A program made the translations under genes and the position numbers. From the NCBI GenBank assembly GCA_016788295.1, contig JAEUSY010000041.1, positions 62,001 to 126,000 of the forward strand: DNA of 64,000 nucleotides, in the 5' to 3' direction. Every line of letters starts with the position of its first letter. The first letter of the stretch is position 1. This DNA is from Flavobacteriales bacterium (GTDB lineage Bacteria; Bacteroidota; Bacteroidia; Flavobacteriales_F; PHOS-HE28). Positions 1,796 through 12,365 of the stretch are shown one piece after another. The notes below the pieces were generated by a model. The model saw only the letters and a list, made by a program, of their open reading frames with translations. It was not told where the DNA came from and made no database searches.

Positions 1796-4700
1796 CTAAG
1801 CCGCCCGCAGATCGTGATATCGATCATCGTGGGCCAGGGAGGGATCGGAACCGACAATGGCCTCCAGAACCTTGCTCAGTTCATCTTTGGACCATGAGTC
1901 GGTAGGGCGTGCCATACGGAAGAGCAACTCCAAACAGCCAGAAGGATCGGTCAGTGGCAACTCGGAATCACTCAGCTCATAGAGGATCTCACTTGGACCC
2001 CCACCCAAGTAGGTGCGTGTCACGGTCAACGCATCTTCCATTCGGTGCCCCATGGTCAGCACAATACGCGCGAACATCTGACCCGTCTGCGGATCATTCT
2101 TCGCGCTTTCTTTCGGCCAAACATCTCGAATGAACGGCACGATCCGATTCTCCCAGAAGTCGTCCTTCTGGGCACCACTGCCATCGAGTGACTGATGAAG
2201 CGAATAGAGGAGCTTTCTCAGGGTGTGGGGTTCAAGTGCATGCACAAGCGTGGTCAGTTCATCTCGACCGAAGGGTGAATTGTCCGATATCGCTATCATG
2301 GCCAACAGACCAGCGATGCGCTCCTCCGTTTCGCCAAATGACACCGCCCGCTTTACCGTCTCACCGAACAGGGGCTTCAGTTCCTGTAACAGGCCCCAAT
2401 GCACATTGCCCGACCAAAGCAAGCCGTACCAGGCCGCGAAGGCCTCCTCCTCTCCCGTTGTCCGATCAAAGCAAGGAAGCAGGTATTGCCTCGTCCAATC
2501 GGGATCAACGCGATACAGGTAGACCGCCTGTCTCGCGAGCAGCGTGCGAGCATGCCGGAAACCTTTCACATCTGTATCACACAGGCCACTGAAAAAGGTA
2601 CGCATGGGCTCCGCCAAACCAAGGCCGTCGCGCAACTTCCCTTTATACCAGATACCCAAAGCTGCTTCAGTGGCCATGCCGACCGGATGATTGATGGCCT
2701 TGTTCACAGGTTCACCTCCTCCCTCCATGTCCATATCCCGGTATGCCTCGATGACTTTATGCAAGAGCTTGAAGAGATAGGCCTGGTCGACCGATCCTTT
2801 GGTCACTCGTCGTAGCCAGTATCCAATCGCAAAACCTAGATCACGTAGTTCAGCGTTCGACTTGGATATCAACTCCGCGCTAACGATCGGCCATGTGCCG
2901 GGTGCGATCTCCTCGTCGGCCCATGCCTGAAGGGCATCCTTCCACCGATCGGCCAGCCATATTCCTTCGCGGTAGAGAATGGCCAAGGCCTCTACTGCCA
3001 TCGTGACGTTCGATCTGGCACGGATCGCAAAATCATCCTCCTCCCATGGGTCGCTCTTCGGATTCGCTCTCAAATAGTCAACCAAGCCATCCAGGTCTTC
3101 AGGGACCTTCTTGGTTGGCGGGGCGTTGACCATAACACGGCCCAAATACGTGTTAAACTCGTCACTCTCATCCTGAGCCAATTCCCAGTGAGGATGCCTC
3201 TTCAGGATGGCCTCGTACTCAGTCCTCGAACCCTCCGAGAGTTCCCCGCCCGCATGCTGGTACTTTGCAAGGCGTATCCAAACAGATCGGTCATGGTGTT
3301 TAAGCCGATCCTCTTCTGATAGGTCCTCGCGCAGCAACTCCTTGGGCGGTCCGGCGAGGATCGCCTCCTGCAGTAAGATGCTTTCTACTGCGGATAACCG
3401 ACCAGCCAAGCTCACAATAAGCCGAAGGGCCTCACGACGTGTCTCGAAGGACCAGAGCGGGGAGTTCGCTGAATACAACAAGTGCTTCAGAGCGATCGAA
3501 GCCGGAACGACCTCACTCAACGTGGAAGCAAAAAGCACGAGGCGCCGGAATGTCGGATACTTCTCCCGCGCCCATCCTTCGACCACCCATAGGGCATGTT
3601 CATTCGACTTCTCAGCCAAGGCCAACCATGCCTCCCGGCAGAATCGAATGAGCAATGTCCAAGAGTCAGCGTGTCGATTCTGATAATGTTCGCTGACAGA
3701 AGGCATCGCAAAGGACGATCCGTCAATAGCTTCGCTTGCCAGGCCGACCTCTTCCATCAGTTGAAGCGCATCGCGAAGCAAGGCGGTGGCGTCGTCGATC
3801 AAGCTGGGAAGTGCGGCCTTCCATGATCCGTTCTTGTCAAGCTTGACAAAGGAGTATCGATCGACGCCTCCGGCCAGCGTGATCGACGTGTGCAGTACTT
3901 CCTTGAAAGATCTGGGCTCGTAGTCTGTTCGAGCTTCCTGGGTGAACATCGTGTGCTCAGCGAACCTCACCTTGGGTGTGAGCAGCTCTCTCAGCCACTG
4001 CCGAATGCTTGAGGTCATACCGCTCAGCTCAAAGGCGGATTTCCATTTCAGGAAGGAAACGGAGTTGATGTGAACGATCGTGCGCCGCGCGAGGACGAGC
4101 TGCCACGCGACGAGCATGAATTCAGGAAAGTCCTTCTCCTTGATCCGTTTCTCGATGTGCCATGCGAACTGTTCGTGTAGTCGCCCACCATTTCGACAGA
4201 CCCAGAGCAAGAGAGAGGGGTCATGTGCATGACGACCCAACCAAGCACCAAGATGGAGAAGGCACGGGTCAAGTGAGTACACAGCTAAAGCGCTACCGAC
4301 CAGCGATAGTCGCTCCGCATGTGTGTGAGGGGCCGGCCGGGATAACAGACTGAACTTCACCTCTGCGCTTTTCGCATCCAGCGGAGAGATCCCGAATCGG
4401 ACAAGGTCCGAGTTCCCGAAGCGCTCCTCAGCCAATGGCTCCAACCATGCAAGCGACGGTACGGGGTCCATTTCCGCGAATCGCTTCGCGGGTGCACCGC
4501 TGAGATCGCTCAAAGCCCAGACCATGCGACCGGTCACATCATCATCCAGTTCACTCGTGGTTGGCTGCATTCCGGCCAGCTGAACCACAAGTGCTTCCTT
4601 GCCATTGATACCATCACGGTACATCGTTGACCAGGCGTCGATGGTTTCATGCAGGTGCGTATACTCCTTGAACAAGATGGGCGTCACCCCTTTGGCTTGC

Positions 4701-5470
4701 CACTTTGCAACACACCTCATTTCATCACCCTCGCACTTAGCGAACGCGTACATGCGTTTCGGCTGCTCACCTAGCATCTCATCGGCAGCGAGTGCGTCCA
4801 TCATGTACCGTAACACCGGATCCTCGATGCTATAGCCAATGAAACAGACCGTGTAGTTGCGAAAGAGCTCGGTGACAAAACGAGCGGCCCATCGCTCAGA
4901 GAGATATGCCCGCCCGAAATCCCCACTTGAAACGACCAGTTGGTTCAGGTCTGCGTGATCATGCCTTTTCTCAAGGTGACCATGCAGATAGACCAGGCCA
5001 TCCCACGTCGCATTTGGAACTGGGAGAAACGGTGCGGCAAAGCTTCTAATGGTTTTTCCAGCAGCGGCCTCGTCGAACAAGCGATCGAAGTTCGTCGTGA
5101 CAAGACGCAGTGCGCCTTTTCGGGTGCGCCCCAATCGCAACAAGGCCTTATGCGTTCGCAAGGCATGGGGCTTGGTCAGGTCGGGAACCAAGGCTTTGGC
5201 GATCTGTTCGCGCATGGTCGCCCGCTGTCCTCGCAGCCGACCTTCGAGCAGGCCGAGTACCGTGTCATATCGACAACTCCTAAATGCCTCGGCTTCCTCC
5301 TCGGACCTGGACATATGGAGACCCTCGAACACCCTTTCGGTAAGCTGCTTGAAACTGGGCAAGCCTGCGGGTAGCGAAATGCCCGCACCGGTGAAGAAGA
5401 TCACCGAACCCTCCTCGTGCAGATAAACTAGATCGTTCGGAACTTCCGGTCCACCTCGACTGAATTGCAT
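1796..5470 (-). CDS. SIR2-like domain protein with large C-terminal region, candidate anti-phage effector
   Basis: A 1224-residue protein. The N-terminal ~240 residues are a SIR2-like NAD-binding domain: FFTGAGISLPAG (residues 25-36), VTTNFDRLF with Asn127 and Asp129, YLHGH with the sirtuin-type catalytic His163, and CFIGYSIEDP (209-218). The remaining ~980 residues are helical, without clear motifs, and resemble the long helical C-terminal parts of bacterial SIR2 defence proteins (DSR-type and SIR2-DUF4020 proteins). Known members deplete NAD+ on phage infection. It stands alone on its strand between an RHS gene and an HNH nuclease gene, an accessory setting. The SIR2 assignment is firm; the defence role is inference. 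Confidence 0.8.
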   Translation of the reverse strand: MQFSRGGPEVPNDLVYLHEEGSVIFFTGAGISLPAGLPSFKQLTERVFEGLHMSRSEEEAEAFRSCRYDTVLGLLEGRLRGQRATMREQIAKALVPDLTKPHALRTHKALLRLGRTRKGALRLVTTNFDRLFDEAAAGKTIRSFAAPFLPVPNATWDGLVYLHGHLEKRHDHADLNQLVVSSGDFGRAYLSERWAARFVTELFRNYTVCFIGYSIEDPVLRYMMDALAADEMLGEQPKRMYAFAKCEGDEMRCVAKWQAKGVTPILFKEYTHLHETIDAWSTMYRDGINGKEALVVQLAGMQPTTSELDDDVTGRMVWALSDLSGAPAKRFAEMDPVPSLAWLEPLAEERFGNSDLVRFGISPLDAKSAEVKFSLLSRPAPHTHAERLSLVGSALAVYSLDPCLLHLGAWLGRHAHDPSLLLWVCRNGGRLHEQFAWHIEKRIKEKDFPEFMLVAWQLVLARRTIVHINSVSFLKWKSAFELSGMTSSIRQWLRELLTPKVRFAEHTMFTQEARTDYEPRSFKEVLHTSITLAGGVDRYSFVKLDKNGSWKAALPSLIDDATALLRDALQLMEEVGLASEAIDGSSFAMPSVSEHYQNRHADSWTLLIRFCREAWLALAEKSNEHALWVVEGWAREKYPTFRRLVLFASTLSEVVPASIALKHLLYSANSPLWSFETRREALRLIVSLAGRLSAVESILLQEAILAGPPKELLREDLSEEDRLKHHDRSVWIRLAKYQHAGGELSEGSRTEYEAILKRHPHWELAQDESDEFNTYLGRVMVNAPPTKKVPEDLDGLVDYLRANPKSDPWEEDDFAIRARSNVTMAVEALAILYREGIWLADRWKDALQAWADEEIAPGTWPIVSAELISKSNAELRDLGFAIGYWLRRVTKGSVDQAYLFKLLHKVIEAYRDMDMEGGGEPVNKAINHPVGMATEAALGIWYKGKLRDGLGLAEPMRTFFSGLCDTDVKGFRHARTLLARQAVYLYRVDPDWTRQYLLPCFDRTTGEEEAFAAWYGLLWSGNVHWGLLQELKPLFGETVKRAVSFGETEERIAGLLAMIAISDNSPFGRDELTTLVHALEPHTLRKLLYSLHQSLDGSGAQKDDFWENRIVPFIRDVWPKESAKNDPQTGQMFARIVLTMGHRMEDALTVTRTYLGGGPSEILYELSDSELPLTDPSGCLELLFRMARPTDSWSKDELSKVLEAIVGSDPSLAHDDRYHDLRAA

Positions 5471-5878: not shown

Positions 5879-7444
5879 ATGGGCAACTTTCCGAAGCCAG
5901 TGCGTGATAAGGCCTTGGTGTTGGCCGCCAGACAGTGCTGTTCCTGCCGCCGGTTCCGGGCCATCCATGTGGAGGTACACCACCTGGTGCCGGTGAGCGA
6001 GGGCGGCACCAATGAACTGGACAATGCCATAGCCCTCTGCTTTGACTGCCATACGGCGGCCGGTCATTACAACGACCAGCACCCGCGCGGCTCGAAGTAC
6101 TCGCCCAGCGAGCTCCGCCTGGCCCGGGATACGTGGTACGCGACCGTGGCCTCCGGTGTGATCAAGCAAGAGCCAGCGGGGCCGGATCCCATCCTGGTGC
6201 GCTATCTGGTGGATCTGGACCCCTTCGAGCAGAACGGGGTGGAAGCGGCGGCGGAGTTCCCACTGCTGGGCACCATTGGGGTGCACGGTGGCGATGCTGC
6301 ACGGTATACACACGCCTACCGCAGGCAGCTTTGGGGCGTTACCAATACCTATCCAGGGCTCGAGGCCTATCGCAGCCGTTGGAGGGACCTGATCGACACC
6401 GAACAACAAGCCACCGACTTCCCCTACTACGCTGCCCAACGAAGGGTTACCCGGCAGGAGTTCGATGAGGTGATCGCGCCCAAGGCGCCGCAGTTGGGCG
6501 AGCTGGCCTACACGCATCGGGTCCCGATCAATGACCTGGTGATCGCCCTGGCCCATACCCCGGATGCTTGCTCCTGGTTTGAAGAGGAGATCACCGTGTT
6601 GTATGAAGAGTATCACATCCGCTCCGTGTGGCCCTTGCTCCTGGCCATCACCAACCGGTCGCAAAATCCCATCCAGTTGTTCGAACTGGTCGGACGAGGA
6701 CAGGGCAACGGCGGCTTCGCCCCCATGGCCAAGGGTGCTGACCCGCTGCAGGAGATGCAACTGCCCATACCGCGAGCGCCTTTGGAACCGCAAGCCACGG
6801 CCATCATCCAATTGGGCAACCTGCTGGGTTCTTTTGGTGAACTGGAACGAACGGACCACTACCAGTCCGAAGTGGCCGTGGATGGAGTGGGATACAGGGA
6901 CCTGTGCTACACGTCTTTGCGCTTGGACGATGCGCTGGGCTATGCCGGCCCCCTGCTCCTACCACAAGCCGTGGTCGCTTTCACCGGCCAAGGCATGGAA
7001 CGGATACCCATCCACGGCTTCGACCCGGCCTTGGTGTACGCGGTGAACACCCGGTGGATGATGGGCTGCTGCCCGCACCTGTTCGCCAAGGTGGATGACC
7101 AGTGGCGCTACCTCACCTCGCTGTTCACGCGCGACCCCGGCAGCACCATATTCGAGACCATACCCCTGCCCCCAGGCACCACCGACGTGATCATCGCGGA
7201 GCTCGAGGACGAGGTGAGCTGGCTGACCTCGGTCACCGGCGGAGGGACCTGTCTGGCCAAGGATATCACCATGCACCGCGGCGATTCCATTCATCTGCAA
7301 GCGAACGGGGTGGATGTGCTGACCGTGGTGGGCGGATACACCCCGCCCCCTGTTACCGTGGCTTCCCGCCACCACCGCAACGCGGTGATCCGCGCGGAGC
7401 TGACCCGATTGCGGAAGGTAGAGCAGAAGCTGACACCCGCCTGA
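5879..7444 (+). CDS. HNH endonuclease-domain protein with unknown C-terminal region
   Basis: A 521-residue protein. Residues 15-65 are an HNH zinc-finger nuclease: paired cysteines at 20/23 and 54/57, His-His at 34-35, Asn49 and His58. The remaining ~440 residues belong to no family I recognise; they contain regular hydrophobic strands and no membrane segment or signal peptide, so the protein is probably cytoplasmic. The start is the only ATG after an in-frame stop at 5849. Standalone HNH proteins with long sensor-like tails occur in defence islands, and the SIR2 gene lies just upstream in the opposite direction. Nuclease domain is clear; substrate and role are unknown. Confidence 0.75.
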   Translation: MGNFPKPVRDKALVLAARQCCSCRRFRAIHVEVHHLVPVSEGGTNELDNAIALCFDCHTAAGHYNDQHPRGSKYSPSELRLARDTWYATVASGVIKQEPAGPDPILVRYLVDLDPFEQNGVEAAAEFPLLGTIGVHGGDAARYTHAYRRQLWGVTNTYPGLEAYRSRWRDLIDTEQQATDFPYYAAQRRVTRQEFDEVIAPKAPQLGELAYTHRVPINDLVIALAHTPDACSWFEEEITVLYEEYHIRSVWPLLLAITNRSQNPIQLFELVGRGQGNGGFAPMAKGADPLQEMQLPIPRAPLEPQATAIIQLGNLLGSFGELERTDHYQSEVAVDGVGYRDLCYTSLRLDDALGYAGPLLLPQAVVAFTGQGMERIPIHGFDPALVYAVNTRWMMGCCPHLFAKVDDQWRYLTSLFTRDPGSTIFETIPLPPGTTDVIIAELEDEVSWLTSVTGGGTCLAKDITMHRGDSIHLQANGVDVLTVVGGYTPPPVTVASRHHRNAVIRAELTRLRKVEQKLTPA

Positions 7445-7638
7445 CCGGTGGCTGGTGCAGGTCGTGCCTGCACTGGGCCATTCTCCGGATGGCCAAATTC
7501 TAAGCACCGGACGCTGATACGCACCGTTGCGCCACAGCCGGAATGGTCGCATAGCCATGACCATTCCTCGGCACGCGTTGATCTCGCGCATCGGGCAGAT
7601 AAAGGAAGGACCTGTTCTTCAGGTGCGCAGCGCCTGTT

Positions 7639-7961
7639 GCGATCGCTCGCACGTGCGAAGCCATGGACACAGCGCGAAAAGCCATCGGTCCCGGCGTGGA
7701 TGCGATCGCAACTGCCGCTATAGCCATGGCCACACTCCCTGAAGCGATCGCGTTGGTCCTTGGTGCGATGGCAATAGCCTCGCTGGCGATCGCTCCGGCG
7801 CGCGATGCGAACGCCACAACGCCCGTTGCCAATGCTCGCCTCTCCCAAGCGATCGCATCAGGTCCTAAGGCAAGCGGTAAAGGTGCTGGTGCGATCGCTT
7901 CGTAGACGGATGCGATCGCACGGTCCACGAATGCGATCACAACGGCCGTTATTGCCATGGC
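7639..7961. repeat. phased array of 16 units, 21-bp period, core GCGATCGC
   Basis: Sixteen octamer cores lie exactly 21 bp apart, at 7639, 7660, 7681 and so on to 7954. Seven are perfect GCGATCGC (7639, 7702, 7744, 7786, 7849, 7891, 7912), two are the palindrome GCCATGGC (7723, 7954), and the others differ by one to a few bases (for example GCGATGGC at 7765, GCGAACGC at 7807). The 13-base spacers are unrelated. 21 bp is two turns of B-DNA, so all cores face the same side of the helix; it is also seven codons, so both strands encode an Ala-Ile-Ala heptad. On the - strand a stop-free frame (GTG at 8033 to 7500, 177 codons) runs through the array. I give no function. Confidence 0.9.
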
Positions 7962-8105
7962 ATGGGGGATCCAATAGCTTTGCAATACTAAAGTATGCGG
8001 ACTCTCCATTGGCATAGATGCTCCATTGCACACCTTATATTATTAAGGACCAACGCTTATTCTAGGATCTTGACATACTACACATAGCTTTAGTATCTTG
8101 CCCGC
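7962..8105. promoter_or_regulatory. promoter region of the pilus/secretion locus
   Basis: TTG at 8070-8072 and TATCTTG at 8094-8100, separated by 21 bases, fit the Bacteroidota TTG-N19/21-TAnnTTTG promoter. The -7 box ends only 5 bases before the pilin ATG at 8106, so the transcript would have almost no leader. The rest of the stretch, from the 21-bp array to the promoter, is AT-rich (TATATTATTAAGG at 8036-8048) and holds no gene I can support. Confidence 0.6.
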
Positions 8106-8519
8106 ATGAACCGATGCCGACCGGCCCATCGCCTCGCCGCATTCACCCTGACCGAGCTGCTGATCGCGCTGGTGATCGTCGGGGTGCTCGTGTACCTGGC
8201 CCTTCCCGACTACAGCCAGGTGGTGGCCAACGCCAAGGCCACGGAAGCCAAGCTCCAGTTGGAGCATCTCCACAGCCTGCAGACCACGCGGTTCTACGAG
8301 CGCAGTGCCTACAGTGCGGACCTGCGTGAACTGGGCTTTCAGCAACAGAAGCTGATCACCGATGGCGGCAACGCCAATTACCGGGTGGAAGTGGTGAACG
8401 CCTCCCCGAACAGCTATCTGGCCCGGGCCACGGCCGTGGCCGATTTTGACCAGGATGGCACCTACAACGTGTGGGAGATCGACCACGAGAAGGCCTTGAA
8501 GGAGGTGGTGCCGGATTGA
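8106..8519 (+). CDS. type IV pilin / type II secretion major pseudopilin (GspG-like)
   Basis: A 137-residue prepilin. A short basic leader (residues 1-12) precedes the classic hydrophobic N-terminus AFTLTELLIALVIVGVLVYL, with Glu17 at position +5 after predicted cleavage between Ala12 and Phe13. The soluble part ends with a short acidic segment (DFDQDGTYNVWEID) like the calcium-binding end of GspG-type pseudopilins. The residue before the cleavage site is Ala, not the usual Gly. It is the first gene of a + strand operon for a pilus or secretion machine and has its own promoter. Confidence 0.85.
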   Translation: MNRCRPAHRLAAFTLTELLIALVIVGVLVYLALPDYSQVVANAKATEAKLQLEHLHSLQTTRFYERSAYSADLRELGFQQQKLITDGGNANYRVEVVNASPNSYLARATAVADFDQDGTYNVWEIDHEKALKEVVPD

Positions 8520-8555: not shown

Positions 8556-9074
8556 ATGGGGACCAGCATTCTTTCACCAGCCATGGCCAACCTGCTGATG
8601 ATGCCAATTCTGGGCATGATCGCATGGGAGGACCTGCGCGACCGCGCCATTCGGTGGTGGTGGCTGCCCCTGCTGGCGGGCCTGCTCATGCTCGGCAACG
8701 CACCATACCAGCCATGGCCGACGACCGCGAACAATGCCCTTTGGAACCTGGGCTTCCTTGCCGTACAGCTGAGCGCTGCGGGGCTGTGGTTGCTGGCCCG
8801 GGGCCGCACCCCGGCGCGGGTCGCGAACAGCATCGGTGCCGGCGACCTCCTCTTCTTCGTTGCTGTGGCCCTTGGCATGCCCTGCCAGGAGTTCATCCCG
8901 TATCACCTGAGCGGCCTGCTGATGGGGTTGGTGCTGCATCTGGTGTGGCTGCGTATCCGGCCGCAGGCCGACCCCACCATACCGCTGGCAGGCTACATGG
9001 CCATTCACCTCGGGTTCTGGCTTACGCTGCGCCCGTTCATCCCGGTGGACCACCTCCCCTTCCATGGCCACTGA
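8556..9074 (+). CDS. prepilin peptidase (A24 family), catalytic domain only
   Basis: A ~170-residue polytopic membrane protein that would remove leaders from the pilins encoded around it. Two Asp regions typical of A24 aspartyl peptidases are visible: WEDLRDRAI (Asp26/Asp29) and GAGD (residues 94-97). The N-terminal cytoplasmic methyltransferase domain with paired CxxC motifs found in full-length PilD/GspO is absent, leaving only the membrane protease. An alternative start is the ATG at 8583. The 3' end overlaps the ATPase gene by 11 bases, showing tight coupling. Confidence 0.75.
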   Translation: MGTSILSPAMANLLMMPILGMIAWEDLRDRAIRWWWLPLLAGLLMLGNAPYQPWPTTANNALWNLGFLAVQLSAAGLWLLARGRTPARVANSIGAGDLLFFVAVALGMPCQEFIPYHLSGLLMGLVLHLVWLRIRPQADPTIPLAGYMAIHLGFWLTLRPFIPVDHLPFHGH

Positions 9075-10485
9075 CCTCATCGCCGAACTGCCCGCAGCCT
9101 TGCGCAACGTGCTCTCTGCCGAACAAGCGTGGCACTACCGCGTGGTGCCCAAGAGCAGGACCGCCGATGAACTGGAACTGTACAGTGAACGGACCGATGC
9201 CGACCTGCAACTGGAGCTGGAGGTGCTGCTCGGATGCCGGGTGGCCCTCACCCCCCTGCCCGCCCACGAGCTGGACAGGGCATTGGGCCTGCACTACCGG
9301 CGCACCGCACAGGCGGCGGAACGCATTGACCTGGGTGCCCGTGGGGCGGAACACGTGCTGATGGACCTGGTGCAGGAAGCCCGGGACCTGGGGAGCAGCG
9401 ACATCCATCTGGAGGTGTATGATGACCATGCACGGGTGAGGATCAGGATGGACGGCCTGCTGGTGGAACGACACCGCTACGGCAAGGCGGAGCACCCGGG
9501 TCTGGTGAACCGGGTGAAGGTCCAATCCGGATTGGACATCAGCGAGAAACGACTCCCACAGGACGGCCGCATGGCGCTGGACCGCGGGGGCCGGCGCACG
9601 GATGTGCGGGTGAGCGTGCTGCCCACCCTGCACGGCGAGAAGGTGGTGTTGCGGTTGCTGGGCCAGGATGCGGGCCACCTGCGCATGGACCAGCTGGGCA
9701 TGGATGACCGGCAACTGAACGACTACCTGCAAGGTGTCCGGAAGCCGCATGGGTTGGTGCTGATCAGCGGCCCCACGGGCAGTGGCAAGACCACCACCCT
9801 CTATGCCACCCTGAAGCTGCTGAACGAGGCCCGCCGCAACATCGTGACCGTGGAGGACCCCATCGAATACACGCTGGAGGGCATCAACCAGGTGCAGCTG
9901 CGCGAGTCGATCGGCCTCACCTTCTCGCAAGCCTTGCGCACCTTCCTGCGGCAGGACCCGGACGTGATCATGCTGGGCGAGATCCGCGATGCGGAGACCG
10001 CCCAGATGGCGGTGCGGGCCGCTCTGACCGGCCATTTGGTACTGAGCACCATCCACACCAACAGCGCATGGGGCACGGTGGGCAGGCTGCTGGACATGGG
10101 GCTGCCTCCCTTCCTGCTCGCCGGCACGCTCAATACCAGCGTGGCGCAACGCCTGCTACGCCTGCTGTGCCCAGCGTGCAGCCGCTCGGAGCCGCTCGTT
10201 CCGGAGCTGCTTGGCGGCCTTCAGTTGGAGGGCCTTCCCAGTGAACATCAGGTGGCGGTCGGGTGCAAGGCCTGCCATTTCACCGGCTACCGGGGGCGCC
10301 AGGCCGTTTATGAGGTGGTGGCCCTGGATGCCGGCCTGCAGGACCTGCTGCGAAAAGGCCATACCCATGCCGGGGAGGCCTTGCGCGAACGCGGGATCCG
10401 CAGCCTGGCCCACAGCGCATTGGACCTGTTGCGGAGCGGCCGCACCAGTTTGGACGAGGTATATCCCATCCTGAGCAGTCACTGA
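9064..10485 (+). CDS. gspE: type II secretion / pilus assembly ATPase GspE/PilB
   Basis: A 473-residue secretion ATPase that powers pseudopilus or pilus extension at the inner membrane. Features in order: short N1-like region, PAS-like N2 domain, Walker A GPTGSGKT (236-243), Asp box VTVEDPIEYT (261-270), Walker B DPDVIMLGEIRD (298-309), His box TGHLVLSTIHTN (322-333), and two CxxC pairs (369/372 and 401/404) forming the zinc site typical of assembly rather than retraction ATPases. It overlaps the peptidase gene upstream and is followed 2 bases later by the secretin gene. Confidence 0.95.
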   Translation: MATDLIAELPAALRNVLSAEQAWHYRVVPKSRTADELELYSERTDADLQLELEVLLGCRVALTPLPAHELDRALGLHYRRTAQAAERIDLGARGAEHVLMDLVQEARDLGSSDIHLEVYDDHARVRIRMDGLLVERHRYGKAEHPGLVNRVKVQSGLDISEKRLPQDGRMALDRGGRRTDVRVSVLPTLHGEKVVLRLLGQDAGHLRMDQLGMDDRQLNDYLQGVRKPHGLVLISGPTGSGKTTTLYATLKLLNEARRNIVTVEDPIEYTLEGINQVQLRESIGLTFSQALRTFLRQDPDVIMLGEIRDAETAQMAVRAALTGHLVLSTIHTNSAWGTVGRLLDMGLPPFLLAGTLNTSVAQRLLRLLCPACSRSEPLVPELLGGLQLEGLPSEHQVAVGCKACHFTGYRGRQAVYEVVALDAGLQDLLRKGHTHAGEALRERGIRSLAHSALDLLRSGRTSLDEVYPILSSH

Positions 10486-10487
10486 CC

Positions 10488-12365
10488 ATGCGCCACCTCC
10501 TCCTGTTGCTGCTGTGGTCCATGGCTGTTGCCTTGCACGGGCAGGACCGCATGGCCCAGTTGGAAGCCCTGCTCAGCAACGCCACGGTGGAGCATCCGGG
10601 GCTGGAAAGCACCGTTGAAATGAGCGTCAGCGGCACGGGGATCAAGGAGTTCGTGCGGGCGCTGGGCATCACCCACAAGCTGAACCTCACGGTGGACCCC
10701 GCTGTGAAGGGAGAGGTCTACAACCACTTCAGTGACGCTCGGGTGAGCGATGTGCTCCTCTACCTGTGCAAGCGCTACGACCTCGATCTCGAGCTGATGG
10801 GGAGCATCATCACGCTGAAGCCATGGACCGCCCCCGTCACCACCACCGCGACCACCACGCCCCGCGAACCACATATCCGATACAGTGCGGACAGTGCCGT
10901 GCTGGATCTGGACCTGCGCCGCGACACGCTGGGCCATGTGGCCCGGCTGCTCAGCCAACGGACCGGAGCCAATTTGGTGCTGGCCCCAGGCCTGGAGGAC
11001 CGCGCGGTATCCATCTTCCTGCGTGCCGCCCCCCTGGTGACCGCATTGGAACAACTGGCGTTCGCGAACGGCTTGCAGATGGAGCCTGCCCGCGACGGGG
11101 CCTATTTGCTGCGTCCTCTCGCCACCGATGGCCGCACAGATACCAAGGGGGCGGCTAAAGGCAGCACGGCATCCACACAGAACATGACCCTCACCGTGTT
11201 GGAGAGCGGGCGGCTTTCGGTGGACGCACAGGGTGTTCCGCTGACCGCCGTGCTGGAGAAGGCCTCGCAGGCACTGACCCGCAACTATTTCCTCTACGAC
11301 AGCCAGGACCGGAACGTGACCCTGCGCCTGAACGATGTGAGCTATGAGGAACTGCTCGGCCATCTGCTTAAGGGCACGGACCTGACCCACCAGATCAGTG
11401 AGGGCGTCCATCTCATTGGCAAGCGCGACCTGGAAGGCCTGAGGAGCACCGAGCTGGTACGCCTGCACCATCGCCCCGTGAAGGATGTGCTCCCGGCTAT
11501 CCCCGCCGGTATCCGGGGCAATGTTTCCATCAGCGAGTTCCTTGAGCTGAACGGACTGGTCCTTAGCGGCGACCCACACCGGATCAACGAGATCAAGACC
11601 TTCCTGCGCAGCGTGGACCAGGTGGTGCCCGTGGTGATGATCGAGGTGATGATCGTGGACGTGAACCGCACGCGCACCGTGACCACCGGGCTGAAGGCCG
11701 GACTGGGCGGCGGTCCCACCCAGAGCGGCGGTACCGTGTTGAGCGGCGTGGACTACAACATGAACAGCGCCACGCTGAACGAACTGATCAACAGCTTCAA
11801 TGGGTTCGGTGTGTTCAACCTGGGCAATGTGGCCTCAGGGTTCTATGTGAGCATACAGGCCTTGGAAACGGACGGAGTGCTGCGGCTGCGCTCCACCCCC
11901 CAGCTGTCCACCCTGAACGGTCATGAGGCCACCCTGAGCATCGGTCAGACCGAATACTACCTGGAGGTGCGCAACGACCTGATCGGCACGCAGAACCCCA
12001 CCGTCACCACCTCGCAGATCTACAAGCCCATCAAGGCGGACCTCTCGCTGCGGATACTGCCCATCGTGAGCAGTGAGGACATGGTGACCCTGGAGATCGA
12101 GGTGAACCAGAGCAACTTCACCACCCGCATCGCCCAAACGGCCCCGCCAGGGTCCGTGGAACGGAAGTTCTCGTCCATCGTTCGGGCCAGCAACCGCGAC
12201 ATGATCATCCTGGGTGGGCTGGAGGAGAAGGAGACCTCCCGCAACGGGAGCGGTGTGCCCTTGCTCTCGCGAATCCCCGTGCTCAAGTGGCTCTTCAGTT
12301 CCAGGACTACCAAGAACCGCAAGAGCAAGCTCACCATTTTCATCCGCCCCACCATCATCTACTGA
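10488..12365 (+). CDS. gspD: secretin (GspD/PilQ-like outer-membrane channel)
   Basis: A 625-residue outer-membrane secretin. It has a signal peptide (residues 1-19), an STN-like N0 domain (~35-105), further N-type domains, and a C-terminal secretin domain from about residue 370 (LRLRSTPQLSTLNGHEATLSIG, then SNRDMIILGGLEEKE, then GVPLLSRIPVLKWLF). The canonical VPLLSRIPVLKWLF-type segment and the Lys/Arg-rich end KNRKSKLTIFIRPTII are present. The gene sits between the ATPase and the L-like gene, as expected for a secretion or pilus operon. Confidence 0.93.
   Translation: MRHLLLLLLWSMAVALHGQDRMAQLEALLSNATVEHPGLESTVEMSVSGTGIKEFVRALGITHKLNLTVDPAVKGEVYNHFSDARVSDVLLYLCKRYDLDLELMGSIITLKPWTAPVTTTATTTPREPHIRYSADSAVLDLDLRRDTLGHVARLLSQRTGANLVLAPGLEDRAVSIFLRAAPLVTALEQLAFANGLQMEPARDGAYLLRPLATDGRTDTKGAAKGSTASTQNMTLTVLESGRLSVDAQGVPLTAVLEKASQALTRNYFLYDSQDRNVTLRLNDVSYEELLGHLLKGTDLTHQISEGVHLIGKRDLEGLRSTELVRLHHRPVKDVLPAIPAGIRGNVSISEFLELNGLVLSGDPHRINEIKTFLRSVDQVVPVVMIEVMIVDVNRTRTVTTGLKAGLGGGPTQSGGTVLSGVDYNMNSATLNELINSFNGFGVFNLGNVASGFYVSIQALETDGVLRLRSTPQLSTLNGHEATLSIGQTEYYLEVRNDLIGTQNPTVTTSQIYKPIKADLSLRILPIVSSEDMVTLEIEVNQSNFTTRIAQTAPPGSVERKFSSIVRASNRDMIILGGLEEKETSRNGSGVPLLSRIPVLKWLFSSRTTKNRKSKLTIFIRPTIIY

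Follow-up and report, generated by a model that had tools for sequence, protein, structure and literature searches.

A 21-bp-phased palindrome array beside a pilin operon as a probable displaced member of an FN3-linked array class in Bacteroidia

What kind of element repeats a palindromic octamer at a spacing of two helical turns in front of a secretion operon? The question is raised by a locus in a Flavobacteriales bacterium, lying in a stretch of 64,000 nucleotides that was analysed as a whole (henceforth the window), where an earlier note had described sixteen octamers recurring at exact 21-bp steps. Direct reading of the DNA bears this out, with 16 octamers in a single 21-bp register at 7639 + 21k (k = 0-15), and the array lies upstream of a type II secretion-type operon. 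The array and its surroundings are as follows:

5879..7444, plus strand: HNH-endonuclease-domain protein, left neighbour of the array
7445..7638, no strand: left intergenic flank
7500..8033, minus strand: open frame of 177 aa across the array, arising by chance and judged non-coding
7639..7961, no strand: octamer array of the GCGATCGC type, 16 units in a 21-bp register, very probably homologous to arrays upstream of FN3-family genes
7639..7646, no strand: first unit core, GCGATCGC
7954..7961, no strand: last unit core, GCCATGGC
7962..8105, plus strand: right flank, the leader of the pilin operon
8106..8519, plus strand: type IV pilin-like protein with an N-methylation motif; the neighbouring secretion operon starts with this gene
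8556..9074, plus strand: probable prepilin peptidase (Peptidase_A24, weak match)
9064..10485, plus strand: secretion ATPase of the GspE/PilB type (T2SSE)
10488..12365, plus strand: secretin

Seven of the octamers match GCGATCGC exactly, while one, two and three mismatches are carried by three octamers each, and columns 1, 2 and 4 are invariant. Octamers within two mismatches fill 13 of 16 consecutive register positions, far above chance given a background of 623 such octamers in 64 kb (below 1e-15 by a simple binomial estimate). The window holds 11 copies of GCGATCGC against 2.35 expected, seven of them inside the array; the four outside it approximate chance frequency, so that the octamer is no genome-wide motif. 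The same octamer constitutes HIP1 of cyanobacteria, which by contrast is dispersed throughout the genome. The extended unit consensus is RWW-GCGATCGC-WWY, the bases around the octamer being A/T although the genome is 60% GC; the GCCATGGC variants are still palindromic, and the unit of the array is dyad-symmetric (p 0.005). The 13-base spacers had been called unrelated, which does not hold: their mean pairwise identity is 4.29/13 compared with 3.26 +/- 0.14 in shuffles, and the spacer consensus correlates at 0.70 with that of a homologous array in other species. When 0.86 Mb of the genome was surveyed for periods of 10-45 bp, a 21/42-bp period appeared only in the window array and in a second array at C5:26187-26685, whose core is likewise CGATCG. 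Separate arrays at several places of the same genome (L105:5090, L106:5816 and L131:8095) look non-coding and consist of ~7/14-bp TCAAGxC-type repeats.

Arrays of this kind recur in relatives. GCSATSGC triplets alone proved useless as a genus-wide search pattern, returning chance matches only. The class was exposed once CGATCG or GATC cores at 21-bp steps were sought in 45 genomes of the genus, many of which proved to have arrays with different spacers. The reversed-pattern control gave mostly zero, the exception being a CTAG-core array in G061. A scan with variable spacing, otherwise yielding mostly chance matches, found that Flavobacteriales bacterium UBA3364 has an array of 22-bp period; among the matches listed by the collection-wide CGATCG scans, this was the only one with a clear FN3-family gene, the others having at most one weak match. 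Most arrays lie directly 5' of a gene for one family of ~205-aa proteins, composed of an N-terminal helical region and a C-terminal FN3 domain, which is found in 40 of the 45 genomes with up to 19 matches per genome. The reading of the locus as a helically phased palindrome array at the level of DNA, recurring in relatives at the same spacing, is supported.

We also searched from the gene outwards, scanning 1500 bp upstream of 111 FN3 genes sampled in this genus for any period of 12-60 bp with no core sequence assumed. An upstream array with z > 7 was present at 96 of the 111 genes, a level reached by ~2% of random 1500-bp segments, and in 93 of these 96 arrays the period is 21/42 or 22/43/44 bp. 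At 30 loci scanned on both sides, the sides being assigned by gene strand, the 21/22-bp arrays were located 5' only. The distance from the end of the array to the start of the FN3 family profile has a median of 250 bp, equal for both periods, and the arrays hold 7-29 units. Allowing gaps of 0-10, dyad symmetry of the unit was significant at p<0.05 in 42 of 93 arrays, the window array included, and at p<0.01 in 25, against 7 and 0 in the mirror (non-complement) control; about half of the arrays have no significant dyad. Many units are gapless palindromes and several others are gapped inverted repeats.

Unit sequences change fast between orthologues while the period stays. Similarity between units is 0.83 at protein identities of at least 80% and 0.32 below 45%, and between arrays of one genome it is 0.31, equal to the between-genome value. 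Since unit similarity follows protein identity and not the genome, the repeat sequence, as judged from these comparisons, belongs to the locus rather than the genome.

The class extends beyond the genus. FN3-family matches occur in 201 of 395 sampled Bacteroidia genomes, the weak ones possibly being plain FN3 domains, and 18 loci were taken from other families. Clear arrays of 21-bp (or 42-bp) period stand upstream at no fewer than eight of them (for example L499, L501, L503, L504, L505, L508, L509 and L510), several further loci giving 20-, 41- or 42-bp signals. No member of the FN3 family was found in plasmids and phages. The idea that these genes mark defence islands was discarded, their neighbours being varied with no dominant defence family.

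Several loci depart from the common layout. TGATCA-core 21-bp arrays at L378 (G013:C87) and G023:C32:128111-128660 are on contigs or stretches lacking an FN3 match, with a type I restriction HsdM-like gene downstream of the former; the FN3-linked array of G023:C5 has the same unit. In one FN3 clade (L457, L459, L461, L469 and L471) a conserved extra ORF ending in 'RPPPxAxH' lies between array and FN3 gene, in some members running in frame out of the array. In another (L390 and L418) a small helix-turn-helix (Cro/CI-like) gene occupies this interval and is a candidate array-binding regulator.

Is the spacing a property of the protein lineage? In a maximum-likelihood tree of 111 FN3 proteins the 29 loci with a confident period of 22 all fall in a single clade (support 100/100) that has no period-21 member, and the remainder of the tree is period 21, save for weak or unclassified calls. 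The tree requires two changes of period, compared with ~26 for shuffled labels, the additional change being due to the weak call at L429. This locus, outside the period-22 clade, has a weak 44-bp period call (z 5.1); its upstream GCGATCGC-like sites do not keep the 21-bp phase and may represent an array in decay. L415, an FN3 locus of the period-22 clade, has a 43-bp unit, about four helical turns. Thus the spacing, 21 or 22 bp, is inherited together with the FN3 protein. Such co-inheritance could also reflect gene and array descending as one block, without any physical reading of the period.

How does the window array relate to this class? Its unit matches best the arrays upstream of L414 (G066) and L445 (G017), at 0.79-0.80, compared with a maximum of 0.63 among 3,000 random folded segments, and with this resemblance, its 21-bp register and its dyad-symmetric unit it is very probably a member of the FN3-linked class. 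No FN3 gene adjoins it ~250 bp downstream, the nearest lying 26 kb off, and a search of the left flank (7445..7638) for an FN3 remnant found none. We therefore class the array as an orphan or a displaced copy rather than a complete class member. Two features bear on its origin:

C55:42566-43183, minus strand: FN3 gene of the same genome and contig without an upstream array, its 5' end facing the window array
1796..5470, minus strand: Dsr1-like SIR2 anti-phage defence protein, between the array and this FN3 gene

Among 110 relatives the FN3 protein encoded at C55:42566-43183 is closest to L445 and L414, at just 49-50% identity, and no other gene of its own genome is nearer to these two. With the best unit matches at the same two loci and this array-less relative facing the array, the window copy is probably displaced: it would once have belonged to the C55:42566-43183 gene, and inserted DNA would have parted the two. 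On either side of C55:60001-62000 the interval contains genes for large FG-GAP-type and other secreted-looking proteins besides the Dsr1-like and HNH genes; the Dsr1-like gene is complete (PADLOC bit score 1073) and adjoins the HNH-domain gene. Alternatively, an FN3 gene once present at the pilin locus may have been lost. The pilin-like gene is present in only seven of 45 genomes of the genus, and in two relatives, G008 and G066, a different FN3 clade with its own array lies beside the same pilin, but these arrays are unlike that of the window. The pilin spot may be prone to such elements, and the displaced copy now precedes the pilin operon, where it may or may not have an effect.

Could such arrays be coding sequence, or a mark for genome-wide factors? 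Seven codons make up 21 bp, and a heptad-repeat protein encoded on the minus strand of the window would agree with a minus frame open through 177 codons, with octamer positions 1, 2 and 4 varying less than their mirror positions, and with the ORF that extends out of its array in one FN3 clade. The AIAxxxx heptads described for both strands are literally there, but the plus frame is broken by a stop at 7903-7905. A 3-periodic Markov model, for which 461 long ORFs of the genome served as training set, gives the best frames -0.010 (plus strand, with the stop) and -0.023 (minus strand) bits per base, at or below the 5th percentile of real genes (-0.011). Column-permuted units are open in 51% of cases, so the open minus frame is expected by chance (P 0.51) and the frames are scarcely more open than those of permuted arrays. 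Of the 16 units, 11 have GCG as the first would-be Ala codon and 14 have A or T at the third position of the second, compared with a genome usage of 47% GCC and 26% GCG; these synonymous positions track the palindrome, not the codon use of the genome. No reading frame of the window array looks coding, sister arrays with a 22-bp period exist and an open frame in phase with the FN3 gene occurs in just 5 of 92 arrays, leaving the repeat-protein gene proposed in the earlier note hardly credible. We also consider it very improbable that the array is a cluster of GATC sites sensitive to Dam-type or other methylation, or a genome-wide loading site for a partition or nucleoid protein. GATC is contained in most window cores and two-turn spacing suits same-face binding, but no D12-class methylase (PF02086) was found in the genome, and many FN3-linked arrays have non-GATC cores. 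No partition role emerged; the arrays occur in many copies, are specific to their locus and go with a single gene family. Moreover, because units within one genome are only 0.31 similar, no single genome-wide factor reads them by sequence.

Two further explanations accept the link to the FN3 gene and differ on what the array does. The arrays may be minisatellites, kept up by slippage or gene conversion, that merely travel along with a dispersing FN3 gene and owe their period to descent, with no function of their own. Fast unit turnover under a persistent period fits this, as does the existence of orphan arrays (the window and G013:C87), but neutral repeats would not be expected to keep a constant 5' position at 250 bp, to show just two periods despite deep protein divergence, to exceed the mirror control so well in dyad symmetry, or to recur across families of Bacteroidia, and we regard this explanation as unlikely. 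The array might instead act as RNA, its transcribed units binding the FN3 protein as in type III toxin-antitoxin (ToxIN) loci, where the repeats are the RNA antitoxin for an endoribonuclease (PMC8860590). The gross layout is shared, with tandem repeats directly upstream of one gene and repeat and protein co-inherited (PMC8860590), and the gapped inverted repeats of several units could fold as hairpins. The details differ: here 7-29 units of ~21-bp dyads end ~250 bp before an FN3 gene, and the Pfam matches of the family are FN3-like only, with no nuclease family and no ToxN/CptN/TenpN-type endoribonuclease downstream. The many gapless palindromes are incapable of small hairpins, and Rfam at the gathering threshold gave no match; a single microRNA match in the window fell below it (E 0.02, score 26, cut-off 70) and was disregarded. 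Among arm mismatches, sense-strand G-U pairs number 183 compared with 212 expected; this lack of enrichment argues for DNA over a sense-RNA hairpin. Taken together, we consider an RNA role rather improbable.

The reading that we prefer places the function in the DNA. Each unit would be a site for a dimeric protein; the two-turn spacing would put all sites on one face of the helix and allow cooperative binding along the array, and the resulting nucleoprotein tract would normally control the downstream FN3 gene. We offer this mechanism tentatively, at somewhat less than an even chance, whereas class identity of the window array and a DNA-level mechanism, taken jointly, are moderately probable. 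The reader of the array may be the FN3 product itself. The earlier note had proposed looking for a conserved neighbouring DNA-binding protein, and a conserved neighbour does exist in relatives, the FN3 family, but no DNA-binding fold is recognised in its N-terminal region. A single-sequence model (mean pLDDT 52) predicts three helices there, and this weak model gave no fold match at E <= 0.001. A stronger version, possible though doubtful, is that FN3 proteins and arrays are matched locus by locus as self-specific protein-DNA pairs, each protein, or a partner of it, assembling on its own phased dyads; the pitch of 21 or 22 bp would then be set by the clade, and the recognised sequence would drift with the protein.

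Known repeat systems resemble these arrays in part. In plasmid iterons one conserved sequence is directly repeated at a replication origin, accompanied by a Rep gene. Like phased operator arrays they present repeated protein sites two helical turns apart, but the FN3-linked arrays are chromosomal, many per genome and free in sequence, and accompany an FN3 gene. BrickBuilt of Porphyromonas gingivalis, a minisatellite of 23-nt tandem repeats inside a MITE with promoter activity in reporter tests, likewise belongs to Bacteroidia and is tandem, intergenic and multi-copy with dyad potential (PMC4596501). Compared by description, it differs in being one sequence family of one species, in its leader, tail and terminal inverted repeats, in its period (23 nt against 21/22 here) and in having no tie to one gene family (PMC4596501).

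In the open-access literature we found no description of FN3-linked arrays, or of any cis-element with fixed period and position but free sequence whose period is passed down along with the clade of a protein encoded next to it. The class is thus apparently undescribed, a statement based on this absence and on its poor fit to known systems rather than on demonstrated function. The arrays provide a concrete candidate partner for a multi-copy Bacteroidia protein family of unknown function. If the self-specific pairs are real, they would constitute a multi-copy, class-wide nucleoprotein system, and the arrays offer a natural series with which to ask how phasing along the helix, rather than sequence, is read by a protein.
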